IMG/VR virus record: IMGVR_UViG_3300045051_000575
Span: 1 to 41,177 of that record
DNA length: 41,177 nt
Source: a virus
Reading direction: 5' to 3' (one strand)
In this document: in pieces, positions 19,111 to 29,881 of the stretch
Layout of the letters: each line of letters starts with the position of its first letter
How positions within the stretch are numbered: position 1 is the stretch's first letter
Notes under the pieces: model-generated
The model's database searches: none
The model's input: the letters and a program-made list of their open reading frames with translations, nothing else
Told to the model about the DNA's origin: nothing
Position numbers and translations under genes: made by a program

Positions 19111-19431
19111 TCAGGCGGGCGCGTACTCGAAAGCGCGGATCGAGGTGCTGATCCGGTAGAGATCGGCGTCGTCGGCGGCAACGCCCTGGGCAAGGACGAT
19201 CTCCGTCTCGGCGCTGAAATGGTCCTGCAACAGCCGGTCCGCCGCGTCAAAGTCCGGTGCCGCCTTGAACCGGGCGACAAGATCGTCGGTGCGATCAGCG
19301 GCCGCGTCGAGATCGAACCCGGCAGCCACCCACCGCTGCACCTGGTCGGCATTGCCGAGGTAGGGCACGAAGGTGTGACTGCCCGATGCGCGAACAACGC
19401 GGCGTCCCCCCTCATCCCATCTGCTCTGCAT
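19111..19431 (-). CDS. Small unknown protein directly after the gpF-ART gene
   Basis: 106 residues (MQSRWDEGGRRVVRASGSHTF). Mixed alpha/beta, acidic, with a DLDAAADRTDDLVARFKAAPDFDAA helical part. Not recognised. It overlaps the end of the gpF-ART gene by 20 bases, so the two are translationally coupled. Because it is next to a possible toxin-like domain, an immunity or packaging-partner role is conceivable, but nothing in the sequence shows this. Confidence 0.5.
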   Translation of the reverse strand: MQSRWDEGGRRVVRASGSHTFVPYLGNADQVQRWVAAGFDLDAAADRTDDLVARFKAAPDFDAADRLLQDHFSAETEIVLAQGVAADDADLYRISTSIRAFEYAPA

Positions 19432-20818
19432 GTCGTGCCTCCAGCGGAAGATCGGTCCAGCGGTGCCGCAGATCCTCGCTCACTTCGAGGTATAGCACAT
19501 CGTTCCGCTCCTGTTTAGCCAAGATGGTGAACTGGAGCCCTGATGGCAAGAGCACCTCCTCTTCCTTGTCTGGAAACAAGGACAGCCATTGCACGTCCCG
19601 GCCGCTCCGGCCCCGGATGACGAAGACGATCGGGCCGGAGAAGGCCTTCTCTGCTTCCTTCGACGAGCTCGACAGGCTTTCGAAGCTGAAGCGCGTTCCG
19701 ACCGGGGCGTTGCGAAAGAACTCGGTCAGGCGAGGTGGCGGCACGGTGATGCCTCTGACTGTCGCGCCAGAATAGCCCGGCAAGCGTCGCAGGGCATTGT
19801 CGATGATCTCGACCAGGCGCAACGCAACGGGGCTGGCGTCCAGCCCAAGCGCGCTCTGCCGAGAAGCATAGTTCAGGCGGGAATGGTAGGAGCCGGTGTA
19901 GATGTGGATCGCGGCAGCTTCCGCAGGGCTGATGGCGCTTACCCCAGCGGCAGCAAGCCGCGCGCGCATGTCGTCGATCAGCTGGCCGATGCGACTGACA
20001 CCGAGCTCTTTCAGAAGCTCGCGCACCTCTCTTCCGTCCGGACGTTTGGCGACCTCTTCGGTGGTGGCCTCGAGATCCTCGCCAAGCGGCAGGGGCAGCT
20101 GCTTGGCCTTGGTGCGCAGCTGGGCGATCACGTCCTGGACGGCCGACCGTCCAGGCGCATAGGCCCAGCCCTTGTCGATCCCCACCGGCGCGCCGGTCTT
20201 CGGGTCAAGCGTCTGCCAGCCATCGGGCAGGGGTTTGCCGGGTTGGCCGCCCAGGCGCTGCGCACCCGCAAAGGACCGGGCCCCCACGACATAGCAGCTG
20301 CAGCCCCAGCCGTTCGGGGGCGCATGGGTGGCCCAGAAGGGATGGTCGGGTGGTAGCACCAGGCCGTCCCAGCCAAGGTGGATGATCCGGGGCTCGGCCG
20401 ATCCGCCGTGGCGGTAGACCCAGAGGGTGAACCCGCCTTCGATCAGCTGGGCCATCCGGCCGGCAGCATAGGAGGTCCGCATGTTCGTCCGGTAGATCAC
20501 CCGCGTCCGCCAGGCCTCGCCAGCCTTCGTGCCTTCTCCGGTCCAGCCGTGCCAGCCGCGCTCTTCGACGATCTGGCGAAAGTCGCGGCGGAACTCCTCC
20601 AGGCTCGTGCCTTTGGCAATCGCCTTCTCGACGGCCGCCGCAAGATCGGCGAGGAGGTCAGCCTTCGTCGCCCCCGCGACCATGAAGGCGCGGTCGTGCT
20701 GGTCCTGCCAGAGGTCGTCCCATCTCGCCGTCGGCACCAGGTTGCCGAGCCGCAGGCGAAAGGCGGCAACCGCCTCCTTGAACGGCTTGCGGAAGGTGGC
20801 CGTCAGCTCGTCAGCCAC
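19412..20818 (-). CDS. Mu gpF-like head protein fused to an ADP-ribosyltransferase-like domain
   Basis: About 468 residues from GTG 20818, which overlaps the portal stop by eight bases; ATG 20863 would add 15 residues. Residues 1-225 are a Mu gpF-type minor head protein (TRVIYRTNMRTSYAAGRMAQL at 105-125, then EGGFTLWVYR, DGLVLPPDHPFW and WGCSCYVVGA). Residues about 298-436 fit the mono-ADP-ribosyltransferase fold of the R-S-E class: VRG with Arg355, an STS-like FESLSSSSK (379-387) and EEE at 419-421 (ExE). gpF occurs in few copies inside the head, and proteins in this place can be ejected into the cell. The ART part may thus modify a host protein on infection, as T4 Alt does (inference). ART tails on phage head proteins are known, but targets mostly are not. 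Confidence 0.85.
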   Translation of the reverse strand: MADELTATFRKPFKEAVAAFRLRLGNLVPTARWDDLWQDQHDRAFMVAGATKADLLADLAAAVEKAIAKGTSLEEFRRDFRQIVEERGWHGWTGEGTKAGEAWRTRVIYRTNMRTSYAAGRMAQLIEGGFTLWVYRHGGSAEPRIIHLGWDGLVLPPDHPFWATHAPPNGWGCSCYVVGARSFAGAQRLGGQPGKPLPDGWQTLDPKTGAPVGIDKGWAYAPGRSAVQDVIAQLRTKAKQLPLPLGEDLEATTEEVAKRPDGREVRELLKELGVSRIGQLIDDMRARLAAAGVSAISPAEAAAIHIYTGSYHSRLNYASRQSALGLDASPVALRLVEIIDNALRRLPGYSGATVRGITVPPPRLTEFFRNAPVGTRFSFESLSSSSKEAEKAFSGPIVFVIRGRSGRDVQWLSLFPDKEEEVLLPSGLQFTILAKQERNDVLYLEVSEDLRHRWTDLPLEARHAEQMG

Positions 20819-22451
20819 CGGCGCCCTCGCTGTCGCGAACCAGGGCGGCGCGGCCCCCGGCATGGCTTGCCATCATCGCGTTCGCGAGGACTCCGGCGAG
20901 GTCGGTCACGTCGAGATCCGGGTAGGCCGCAAGGAGCATCTCGCGCAGCTCCTCGAGACTGCCGGCGGCCTCCATCATCGCCTCGATCCGTGCGAGCATC
21001 GCCTCCATCGCCGGGGCGGCCTCCTCGGCCAGGCGGTCGGTCAGAAGGTCGATTTCGGAAGGGGCGGATTTCCGGGCCGTGGAGGGGCCTTCCGCGTTGA
21101 GGGCGGTCTCGGTACCTCCAGAGGGCTCGACCCGTTTAAATTCGCCGGAAACCTGTTTAAATTCGGAAACGGGGGGCTGGGGGCCGGTCGCAGCTGCGCC
21201 GCCACCGCTCGGGCGCAGCAGTTTGGCCCCCGGCTTGGGGTCGGAGAGGCCGAACTTGTCCCGGAGCTCGCCCTGGTCGACCTCGAGCCCGCGGTCGACC
21301 AATCCGCCGATCGCAGTCGAGAGCGCGACCAGGTCCTCCTTCTCGGGCTCCTCGATCTTCAGGCGCGGGTAGACCTTCTGGGGGCCGAAGTTCAGCTGCA
21401 TCCAGGGCCGGATCAGATCCCGGTTCAGGATCGCGGCCAGCGCACGGGCGTCAGCGGTCTGGATCGACTTCTGCACCTCGCGGTGCTCCTTGCCGGACCC
21501 CAGGCCCCCGGTCACCGCATCGGTCGTCGCGGTCTGGCCAAGGACTGCCTTCGAGATCTGCATGTCGAGCCAGTTGGCCCGGTTCTCGTAGAGGTCGGAC
21601 GAGGCCCCGACGTTCGAGGTCTCGATGAACTCGATCTGCATCGATTCCGGGATGATGGCGGCGCAGTCGCCGGCGATGTTCGAAACGGCGGTGAAGAGGG
21701 TGTCCTTGTCCTTCTCCGATGCCTCCGGCCCGAACTTGCCGAGGCGCAGGGGCTGGCCGTAGGTCTGGGTGAAGATCGCCCAGTCGCGCTGGGTATAGGC
21801 CTTGAACATCCAGCCCCAGGCGGCGACCCGTGCAAGGCCCGATCGCAGCGTGATCCCGGACTTGGCCTTCACCTGGGCGAAGACGAACTTGAAGGCGGGC
21901 AGCGGTACCTCCTGCCCGGTGTCGGTCAGCATCAGCGGCGTCTTCAGGTCGCTCCGATCGAACCGGAACCAGCGCGGGTCACGGTATTCGAGGCGCAGGG
22001 GCATCCACTGGCCTTCCGAGGTGTCCCAGAGGATCTCGGTCATCGAGTAGCCCTTGCCGATGCAGTCGAGGATGTCGAAGACCTCCTCGGTCAGCTCGTC
22101 GCGGTTGAGCCAGTCGCGCACCATCTGGGCATGGGTCTCGGCCTCGGGCGTGTCGTCGCCGGCCTCGACAGTGAACGGCATCTGGCTGACGGCGCGGCGG
22201 CGGGTGCCAAGGACGCCGAGGTAATGGGCGTCCCGCTCCTCGATCGTCTCGGCGAGCTCGAGGTAGCGGATCGCATCGCCCTGGTCCGCCTCGCGCAGGA
22301 TCGACGCAAGGCGGTTCGGGTTCAGCCCGTCGGCCGGGTAGCCCGAGATCGGCGAGCGCACCCCGCCGATCGTGGCACGGCTGATCTCGGTCTTGAGGAC
22401 GGCCTTGGTGACCGGCTGGCCACGGGAATCGAGGAGCTGGGCGGTTTTCAT
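20811..22451 (-). CDS. Portal protein (Mu gp29-like, DUF935)
   Basis: 546 residues (MKTAQLLDSRGQPVTKAVLKTE). The conserved segments are LASILREADQGDAIRYLELAETIEERDAHYLGVLGTR-type core, DWAIFTQTYGQPLRLGKF and the C-terminal helical crown. This is the DUF935 portal of Mu-like phages, forming the dodecameric DNA entry ring. It lies between the terminase and gpF genes as in Mu and overlaps the terminase by four bases. The last 120 residues are acidic and helical. Confidence 0.95.
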   Translation of the reverse strand: MKTAQLLDSRGQPVTKAVLKTEISRATIGGVRSPISGYPADGLNPNRLASILREADQGDAIRYLELAETIEERDAHYLGVLGTRRRAVSQMPFTVEAGDDTPEAETHAQMVRDWLNRDELTEEVFDILDCIGKGYSMTEILWDTSEGQWMPLRLEYRDPRWFRFDRSDLKTPLMLTDTGQEVPLPAFKFVFAQVKAKSGITLRSGLARVAAWGWMFKAYTQRDWAIFTQTYGQPLRLGKFGPEASEKDKDTLFTAVSNIAGDCAAIIPESMQIEFIETSNVGASSDLYENRANWLDMQISKAVLGQTATTDAVTGGLGSGKEHREVQKSIQTADARALAAILNRDLIRPWMQLNFGPQKVYPRLKIEEPEKEDLVALSTAIGGLVDRGLEVDQGELRDKFGLSDPKPGAKLLRPSGGGAAATGPQPPVSEFKQVSGEFKRVEPSGGTETALNAEGPSTARKSAPSEIDLLTDRLAEEAAPAMEAMLARIEAMMEAAGSLEELREMLLAAYPDLDVTDLAGVLANAMMASHAGGRAALVRDSEGAGG

Positions 22452-23869
22452 CGGATGGATCCTCTCAGTCTGGCCCCGAGCGGCGCGCGGAAGCGGTCGC
22501 GGTCGTCATCATCATCCGGGCCTAAGCCGCCCCGGCTGGACCCTGCCCCGCGATACTCGTAGCTCGCCTCGCCCAGCTCGGCCGCCGTGACGGCCAGGGC
22601 GGCGGCCCAGAAGCGGTCGGCGTGACCGTCTGTCTCGCCATCGGCGATCAGGCGGCGCTGGCCGGCGACGCCCACCTGGCTCTTGATCGCATGGAGGTCG
22701 GACCGCAGGACGGGGTCGCCCGCAGGGATTCGCAGGCGGCGGTCCTGGAAGCGCTCCTTCAGGACCGTGGCCATCCCCAGCTTGTTCGCCCCGGTGAAAA
22801 GGACGCCCTCGACACGGGAACTGCCATGGCGGCGCTGCGCGTCCTCGACCGGCTTCTCGCCCATCCCGGTCTGGTCGATCTTGGCGCGGATCACCCGGTA
22901 GCGGGCGAAGACATCGGCCAGAAGCGCGTCCTGCTCTGCAAAGCTGATCCGGCGGCGGGCGATGACCTCGCGGGTCCAGAGGACGTCGCCGACCATCTCG
23001 CAGACCCAGATCACGAATAGGTCGTTCCGCGCGGCGATGTCGACGCCGATGAAGCAGGACCCGCCCTGGTAGTTCCCGGGCTTGCCTGCGCCCTCGGCCT
23101 CGCAGCTCGAGATCAGGTCGTAGTCAAGCCAGGCACTGGCCTCGTCCAGCCACTTCAGCTCGTATTCCTGCGCCCAGGCATCCTCGTCGGCCATGCCGCG
23201 GCGAAGCATTTCAACATCCCGGTCAAGGCCCTGTTTAACGGCCTCGTAAATGTCGACCACGTGGCGTGACCAGACCGAGTCCTCGGCGGTCATCAGCTCG
23301 TAGAACTTGTTGCCCTTGCCGTTCGGGGTCGAGATCACCCGCAGTTTCTGCCGGCCCTTGGAGATGACTGGGAACAGCGCCGCCCAGATCTCGCGCGACT
23401 TCGCATGGAAGGCGAACTCGTCCAGGATGACGTTGGCCGAAAAGCCGCGCGCGGTGTCGGGGTTCGCGGGAAGCGCCGTGATCCGGCTGCCGTTCGGAAA
23501 GGCGACCTCCATCGCCTTGTAGACGGCGTCCGGCCCCTTCTCCTGCGGGGCGCGGAACTCGGTCTCCTCGAAGGTCGGCTCGCCGCCTTTGACGATGGTG
23601 TTGTAGACCTCGTAGAAGGCCTTGGTGAAGGGCTTGATGACCTCGGTCATCATTTCGGCCGCCTGGCGTTCGCCCCGGCTGAGGATCACCCAGCGGGCGC
23701 GGCGATCCTCGGCCCAGCCCCGGAAGCAGTCGTCGGAACACTCGCCCCCGGTCGAGAAGGTCTTGCCGGTCTGGCGGGCGAACATGCCGATCTTGAACCG
23801 GCTCTCGTCGGCGATCCAGGCCCGCTGGTAGGGCAGGAAGTTGATGACGGGGCGGACGAGGGCGCTCAC
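22448..23869 (-). CDS. Terminase large subunit (Mu gp28-like)
   Basis: 473 residues. Walker A-type ARQTGKT at residues 31-37 and Walker B VILDE at 147-151 form the packaging ATPase. The C-terminal half has the RNase H-like nuclease part with FIGVDIAARNDLFVIW (around 278) and later acidic residues. Packaging in Mu-like phages is headful from the integrated genome, taking in flanking host DNA. The start overlaps the stop of the upstream gene (ATGA). Confidence 0.95.
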   Translation of the reverse strand: MSALVRPVINFLPYQRAWIADESRFKIGMFARQTGKTFSTGGECSDDCFRGWAEDRRARWVILSRGERQAAEMMTEVIKPFTKAFYEVYNTIVKGGEPTFEETEFRAPQEKGPDAVYKAMEVAFPNGSRITALPANPDTARGFSANVILDEFAFHAKSREIWAALFPVISKGRQKLRVISTPNGKGNKFYELMTAEDSVWSRHVVDIYEAVKQGLDRDVEMLRRGMADEDAWAQEYELKWLDEASAWLDYDLISSCEAEGAGKPGNYQGGSCFIGVDIAARNDLFVIWVCEMVGDVLWTREVIARRRISFAEQDALLADVFARYRVIRAKIDQTGMGEKPVEDAQRRHGSSRVEGVLFTGANKLGMATVLKERFQDRRLRIPAGDPVLRSDLHAIKSQVGVAGQRRLIADGETDGHADRFWAAALAVTAAELGEASYEYRGAGSSRGGLGPDDDDDRDRFRAPLGARLRGSIR

Positions 23870-24123
23870 CCCTTGAACTCCGCCCTGCCAGACTTATCGC
23901 GCAGGATCGCCGCAGCGGCCTTGGCGACCAGCGCCCAGACGGTCTGGCGGCGATTGTGGCCTTCGATCCGCAAGTCGCCACCGTCCCAGGGGATGTTGAG
24001 GTCGATCTCCTCCAGCTCCTCCCAGCTCAGGGCATAGTCGCTGATGTCGGCAAGGTCGCTGAGGTTGACCAGTTCCGCGGTGGCGATCTTGTCGCCGTTG
24101 ATCCTGATCTCGATCGTCAGCAT
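23866..24123 (-). CDS. Conserved small unknown between Acb2-like and terminase genes
   Basis: 85 residues (MLTIEIRINGDKIATAELVNLSDLADISDYALSWEE). Beta strands in the first 30 residues are followed by an acidic turn and a basic/Ala-rich helix ending (EGHNRRQTVWALVAKAAAAIL). The family is not recognised by function. It is coupled by a four-base overlap to the terminase and lies four bases after the Acb2-like gene. The position makes a role in packaging or in anti-defence equally possible. Confidence 0.55.
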   Translation of the reverse strand: MLTIEIRINGDKIATAELVNLSDLADISDYALSWEELEEIDLNIPWDGGDLRIEGHNRRQTVWALVAKAAAAILRDKSGRAEFKG

Positions 24124-24127
24124 GGCG

Positions 24128-24379
24128 TCACTCGTCCTTGGGCAGGCGCACCCGTCCCGGCTTGAACACGGCGCGGTTCACGGCCATGAAGCCCTGCTCG
24201 ATTTGCGTCCGGCCCACCGCCAGCCAGCGCTTGTCGATGTCATCGCGCTCGGCCAGCTCGTCGAGAACGCGCAGGACCTCTTCCTCGATCTGCTTGTTGT
24301 AGCCGACCGTGGCGACCGCCAAGCCCGATTGCGGCTTGTAGCCCGGGACTGGCAGGCCCTCATGCTTCGTGTCGCTCAT
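24128..24379 (-). CDS. acb2: Acb2/Tad1-family cyclic oligonucleotide sponge (anti-CBASS)
   Basis: 83 residues. The segments GYNKQIEEEVLRVLDEL (26-42) and RWLAVGRTQIEQGFMAVNRA (51-70), followed by VFKP, are the signature of the Acb2/Tad1 hairpin domain. Acb2 proteins of Pseudomonas phages form hexamers that bind cyclic di- and trinucleotides and so block CBASS immunity; relatives act on Thoeris signals. The family was recognised from sequence pattern; ligand choice cannot be read here. It overlaps the gp27-like gene by four bases within the late operon. Late expression is odd for an early defence inhibitor, so it may also be transcribed earlier from another promoter or act in lysogens. Confidence 0.85.
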   Translation of the reverse strand: MSDTKHEGLPVPGYKPQSGLAVATVGYNKQIEEEVLRVLDELAERDDIDKRWLAVGRTQIEQGFMAVNRAVFKPGRVRLPKDE

Positions 24380-24915
24380 TCTGCAAACCCCATGATGCGG
24401 CGCGCCTTGGCGGCGGCTTCGGCGTCGATGTCGCCAGTGGCGACGGCACTGGTCAGGGCGGCGTCCTGCTTCGCCTTCAGCCGCTTCTCGACCTCCTGGG
24501 TCAGCTTCTCGTTGATGCCGGCAGCGGACATCAGGTCCTTCAGCATCTTGCCCAGGAAGTGCAGGTCCTTGGCCTCGATCACCTGGTCGGCGTCGGACAT
24601 CGCCTTCACCAGGTGGACGGCCTGCGCCGCAACCAGCTGGAAGAGGGTCTGGTAGATCGCACTCTCCTCGCCGATTTCCATCTCGGCCAGGACGTGCTTC
24701 GACACCTGGAAGGCATCCCGCTGCCGCTTGAGAAGCAGGCTGAACTCGCCCACGGCGGTCTTTCCGATGCGGACCTCAAGCCCTTCTGCCTCGAGCCAGA
24801 AGTTCAGCTCTTCCGTCACCTTCACGATGTCGGCAAAGCCGCGCGCGGCGAGCGTGGCCTCAAGCTGCTTTCGCAGGGCGTCGGGGATCAGGTCCAGCTT
24901 CTTCGGGGCGGGCAT
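24376..24915 (-). CDS. Mu gp27-like protein (DUF3486), candidate small terminase
   Basis: 179 residues (MPAPKKLDLIPDALRKQLEATLAARGF). It has an N-terminal HTH-like part (residues about 15-60), then long helices with FQLVAAQAVHLVKAMSDADQ and a Lys/Glu-rich coiled-coil C-terminus. This matches DUF3486 (Mu gp27), which sits just before the large terminase and is thought to be the small, DNA-recognising subunit. AGAGGTGAG precedes the ATG. Confidence 0.88.
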   Translation of the reverse strand: MPAPKKLDLIPDALRKQLEATLAARGFADIVKVTEELNFWLEAEGLEVRIGKTAVGEFSLLLKRQRDAFQVSKHVLAEMEIGEESAIYQTLFQLVAAQAVHLVKAMSDADQVIEAKDLHFLGKMLKDLMSAAGINEKLTQEVEKRLKAKQDAALTSAVATGDIDAEAAAKARRIMGFAE

Positions 24916-29569: not shown

Positions 29570-29881
29570 TTAGTCGAACGCTCCCACGCCGTCGTTGGGA
29601 TTGACGGTCTCCCACCAGGTGGGAAGGGCCTTGTCAGGGTCGCCGCCAAGCCGCCGTGCGCCTCGTTCGTTCCGCGCACCGACAACGCCGCAATGGCACC
29701 TGCCCCGATGCGGTGGACGCCAGCTCTCCCAGAAAGGGTGCTCGGGCGGCAGAACGACACCGTCAAAGGCGGCGTGGCTTTCGGGGCAGGAAATAGGGTC
29801 GTAGGCCCGGTAGACCCACAACGCGAACCCGCCCTCGCGAAGCTGGGCGAGACGCCGTTCCTTGAACTCTGCCCGATCCAA
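29570..29881 (-). pseudogene. Stand-alone gpF-domain fragment, probably frameshifted
   Basis: 103 residues from TTG 29881. EGGFALWVYR, DGVVLPPEHPFWESW, CHCGVVGARNERGARRLGG and WWETVNPNDG match the central segments of the gpF head protein at 19.4-20.8 kb (EGGFTLWVYR, DGLVLPPDHPFW, CSCYVVGARS, QRLGG). A well-placed ATG at 29931, coupled by ATGA to the upstream gene, opens a different frame whose first codons (MSALVINIRATSG) resemble the preceding gpF segment (VIYRTNMRTS). This suggests that a single-base change split a once continuous gene. It lacks the gpF N-terminus and the ART domain. A slippage mechanism cannot be excluded. Confidence 0.6.

Follow-up and report, generated by a model that had tools for sequence, protein, structure and literature searches.

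An Acb2-family hairpin protein encoded between gp27-like and terminase genes of a Rhodobacterales Mu-like phage

Introduction

Acb2 proteins with solved structures sequester cyclic-nucleotide signals. Vs.4, the Acb2 of phage T4 (PDB 7uq2), holds cGAMP via Y8, H11, K23, R79 and F82, and its hexamer binds three cGAMP with a Kd of about 30 nM (PMC10097602); Y8 and F82 are also required for triggering Panoptes (PMC12657218). Acb2 of Pseudomonas phages (PDB 8h2j, 8h2x, 8ixz; 'p26') belongs to the same hairpin family. The hairpin domain, Pfam family PF24729, is also common to Tad1, which has an additional N-terminal beta domain of four strands (PMC12043709). Closer in sequence to the protein described here are RcapMu44 of Rhodobacter phage RcapMu and gene 42 of RcWaterboi (65-66% identity), which come from isolated Mu-like phages and are annotated as hypothetical, with the remark 'similar to cyclic-nucleotide binding domain' in the case of RcapMu44. 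In the open-licence literature covered, no paper was found that brings together three or more of anti-CBASS, Acb2, Rhodobacter and alphaproteobacteria.

Here, we describe a gene in a window of 41,177 nucleotides, the stand-alone virus record IMGVR_UViG_3300045051_000575 of IMG/VR. Its 83-residue product can be assigned with confidence to the Acb2 family as a new member, belonging to a branch carried by alphaproteobacterial Mu-like phages, and it is very probably a sponge of the Acb2 type that sequesters cyclic-nucleotide signals.

Results

The gene and its family

The acb2-like gene occupies positions 24128..24379 as an intact reading frame of 83 codons, from ATG to stop. The original prediction had given exactly these coordinates and left the strand unstated; the frame runs on the minus strand, from 24379 to 24128. 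The two stretches of sequence quoted in that prediction are found where they belong, the core motif RWLAVGRTQIEQGFMAVNRAVFKP at residues 51-74, as claimed, and EEEVLRVLDEL at residues 32-42. PF24729 (Acb2_Tad1_hairpin) matches the protein over the full profile, positions 1-58, with 53.7 bits (E=2.4e-14) against a match cut-off of 27 bits, far beyond chance, and a six-frame search of the virus record recovered the match again. Thus, the profile match that had been proposed as a check was obtained. The sequence profile, the comparison with PDB sequences, the predicted fold and the residues of the binding site all back the assignment to the Acb2/Tad1 type. In PHROGs the protein falls into phrog_717, whose function is not annotated. 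Searches with PADLOC and NCBIfam gave no match; since PADLOC models defence rather than anti-defence proteins, its null result does not count against a sponge. In a single-sequence phmmer search, TAL-effector repeat proteins ranked above Acb2, but these were summed weak repeat matches, none of them significant singly, and they disappeared when a profile was used.

Relatives at 50-80% identity are found in dozens of phages. By tblastn they occur in 55 phage records, the best being RcWaterboi (66%), RcapMu (65%), a Brevundimonas phage (64%) and a Rhizobium phage (62%), and further in 46 IMG/VR loci and in nine bacterial assemblies, most of which are alphaproteobacterial according to their titles. 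An alignment of 35 relatives, from which the family profile was made, shows G13, Y14, K29, E32, E33, L36, R37, D40, R51, W52, R57, T58, M65, R69, P74 and R76 to be invariant. The invariant R51 corresponds to R67 of Acb2, a residue which we take to contribute to the cyclic-trinucleotide pocket. Some relatives have peculiarities of their own: two (L036:5983-6438 and L039:4900-5400) bear a C-terminal extension of about 65-75 residues with no assigned function, and that of Rhizobium phage RHph_X2_26 (L050:3447-3986) comes after a gene annotated as TIR, which Pfam assigns to DUF1937/DUF4406.

Fold and predicted ligand site

When the profile of the 35 relatives was compared with PDB sequences, it matched Acb2 of Pseudomonas phages (8h2j/8ixz, 8e-12) best and T4 Vs.4 (7uq2, 1.5e-6) next, and nothing else at E<=0.1. 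The AlphaFold2 model of the monomer (pLDDT 86.8) is a two-helix hairpin with helices at 19-43 and 50-72, and it resembles solved Acb2 in having a short N-terminal segment followed by two long antiparallel helices. In the Foldseek search of the PDB, the top nine chains are all Acb2 or Vs.4 with a probability of 1.00, and the next-ranked match has 0.33; the TM scores of these Acb2/Vs.4 matches are 0.6-0.69, and their E-values are only 6e-3 to 2e-2, as expected because the protein is a small hairpin.

How far does the likeness extend to the residues that hold the ligand? The five contact residues of Vs.4, Y8, H11, K23, R79 and F82, fall on Y14, Q17, K29, R69 and F72, of which four are identical. 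All 35 relatives have Y14, K29 and R69, and 33 of them have F72 as well. The histidine replaced by Q17 is also absent from PaP2-type Acb2. Overall identity to Vs.4 is low, and T4 is a large virulent phage while the present one is Mu-like. With Acb2 of Pseudomonas phages the protein shares GY(R/K) and a lysine at identical spacing (Y11/K26 there, Y14/K29 here) and the motifs RWLAIG-T and RA--QP. The identity by structural alignment is about 23%, the helices are joined by a loop some 20 residues shorter than that of 8h2j, and phage group and gene neighbourhood are different.

Because PF24729 describes a hairpin that Acb2 and Tad1 have in common, one may ask whether the protein is a sponge of the Tad1 type, whose chief target would be gcADPR, the signal of Thoeris, rather than the cyclic nucleotides of CBASS, and ThsB-type TIR genes are indeed present in about 11% of the genomes of a related bacterial family. 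The architecture tells against this. Only 12 of the 83 residues precede the conserved GY motif, and the model has isolated bridge residues but no sheet domain, so that the antiparallel beta-sheet domain which precedes the hairpin of Tad1 is absent. Moreover, Tad1 appears neither in the PDB profile matches nor among the 50 Foldseek matches listed, and the residues by which Acb2 contacts cGAMP are retained. Tad1 is therefore rejected on architecture, the protein being a hairpin only, with no room for the beta domain, and a Tad1-type sponge directed chiefly at gcADPR is very unlikely. The family call is thus sharpened: the protein is Acb2-like rather than Tad1-like.

Position in the packaging operon

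On the minus strand, acb2 comes after the gene for a Mu Gp27-like protein or terminase small subunit (24376..24915; PF11985, phrog_426) and is followed by a gene for an 85-aa protein of unassigned function (23866..24123), the gene for the terminase large subunit, terL (22448..23869; Terminase_6N/6C), which forms the downstream border of this accessory slot, and the Mu-type portal gene (20811..22451). The predicted location between gp27-like and terminase genes therefore holds, with the qualification that the 85-aa gene intervenes before the terminase. The gp27 stop overlaps the acb2 start by 4 bp (ATGA), and the stop of the 85-aa gene overlaps the terL start (GTGA); therefore, co-transcription of acb2 with the packaging genes is likely. 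The Mu-like nature of the phage, as first proposed, is confirmed by matches of the record to Mu portal, MuF, transposase, GemA and Gp27, and its proposed Rhodobacterales origin is supported by relatives that occur in Rhodobacter, Tabrizicola, Rhodovulum, Thiobacimonas and RcapMu.

Two further genes on the minus strand of this record may be mentioned. The MuF-type head protein (19412-20863) bears a C-terminal ADP-ribosyltransferase-like domain (ART, 1.1e-6), and a free-standing 103-aa protein in the early region (29570-29881) shares 50% identity with part of this MuF in a stretch of 96 residues.

An exchangeable accessory gene

Among phages whose Gp27 and terminase are about 90-98% identical, acb2 may be present, absent or diverged. 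One of them (L061) has 98% identity to the window in gp27 and 94% in TerL, but only 67% in acb2 and 47% in the 85-aa protein; a second (L063; gp27 91%, TerL 94%) is without acb2 and has a GapR-domain gene and an unassigned gene there instead; and in a third (L064) acb2 is followed by a different gene. The isolated relatives vB_ThpS-P1 and vB_RhkS_P1 gave no significant acb2 match and have other small genes in the gp27-terL interval. Elsewhere the gene occupies other slots. In RcapMu and about a dozen other loci, some of which may represent the same phage in two collections, it is flanked by the major capsid gene and a gp36-like gene, as is gene 42 of RcWaterboi, and in Brevundimonas, Rhizobium and Caulobacter phages its neighbours are replication or hypothetical genes. 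Against close relatives, its dN/dS is 0.26-0.40 with dS of 0.61-0.92, higher than in the flanking genes; therefore, acb2 is under purifying selection, but it has either been exchanged or diverges more quickly than the genes beside it.

These distributions also bear on whether the protein could be a component of packaging or head assembly that has only the hairpin fold in common with Acb2. Its place between Gp27 and terminase, with the 4-bp overlap, and the adjacency of other relatives to a capsid gene would suit such a role. It is hard to reconcile with the lack of the gene in L063 despite near-identical Gp27 and TerL, and in vB_ThpS-P1 and vB_RhkS_P1, with its presence in non-structural regions of other phages, and with the retention of the predicted ligand-contact residues. 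On the evidence of presence, absence and slot, a packaging role is rejected, and we regard this explanation as extremely improbable; acb2 is an exchangeable accessory gene.

The 85-aa protein is a co-resident accessory gene product and is hypervariable. Between two loci (L002 and L003) it is 51% identical, yet acb2 is 98% and TerL 97% identical, and pN is only slightly below pS. Its ends are conserved (MLTIEVKLNG and WALVAKAAAAILGQ). A fold of four strands and one helix is predicted, for which structural relatives are only uncharacterised phage proteins; sequence relatives are found in Ruegeria phages. DUF6527 genes recur between gp27 and terL in four loci (L061, L006, L084 and L085). It might be imagined that Rhodobacterales Mu-like phages have, between gp27 and terL, a hitherto undescribed hot spot of counter-defence, and that the fast-diversifying 85-aa partner of Acb2 is an anti-defence protein acting with the sponge or guarding it, for example against sponge-sensing systems like Panoptes, but we consider this rather unlikely.

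Defence genes in related hosts

Co-occurrence was counted across 397 genomes from a single bacterial family, the one to which the host of one related prophage (G003) belongs. PF24729 is present in 18 of them, a SMODS-type CD-NTase in 39 and a ThsB-type TIR in 43; thus, possible targets of a sponge occur in related hosts, each in about 10% of the genomes of this one family. With only 18 carriers, and hence low power, neither the CD-NTase (3/18 in Acb2 carriers versus 36/379 in non-carriers, p=0.40) nor the ThsB-type TIR (1/18 versus 42/379, p=0.71) is significantly enriched in carriers. That the host of the present phage carries CBASS or a Thoeris-like defence, as originally suggested, does not follow from these counts.

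Discussion

How would such a protein serve the phage? By analogy with the homologues of solved structure, the helical hairpin would assemble into a hexamer, and pockets between protomers, formed by Y14, K29, R69 and F72, would take up the cyclic dinucleotides that host CD-NTases of CBASS produce, with a possible further site for cyclic trinucleotides at the centre of the hexamer. The signal would be sequestered, not cleaved, so that the phage might finish its cycle with the effectors of abortive infection still off, giving protection from CBASS. Since acb2 sits in a late packaging operon and overlaps gp27 by 4 bp, it is probably made in lytic growth and upon prophage induction.

With the present finding, Acb2 sponges whose ligand residues are conserved reach into a common and unannotated branch in alphaproteobacterial Mu-like phages. 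This branch includes RcapMu, a culturable phage that lends itself readily to a direct genetic test, and the gp27-terL interval is a place to seek further counter-defence genes.
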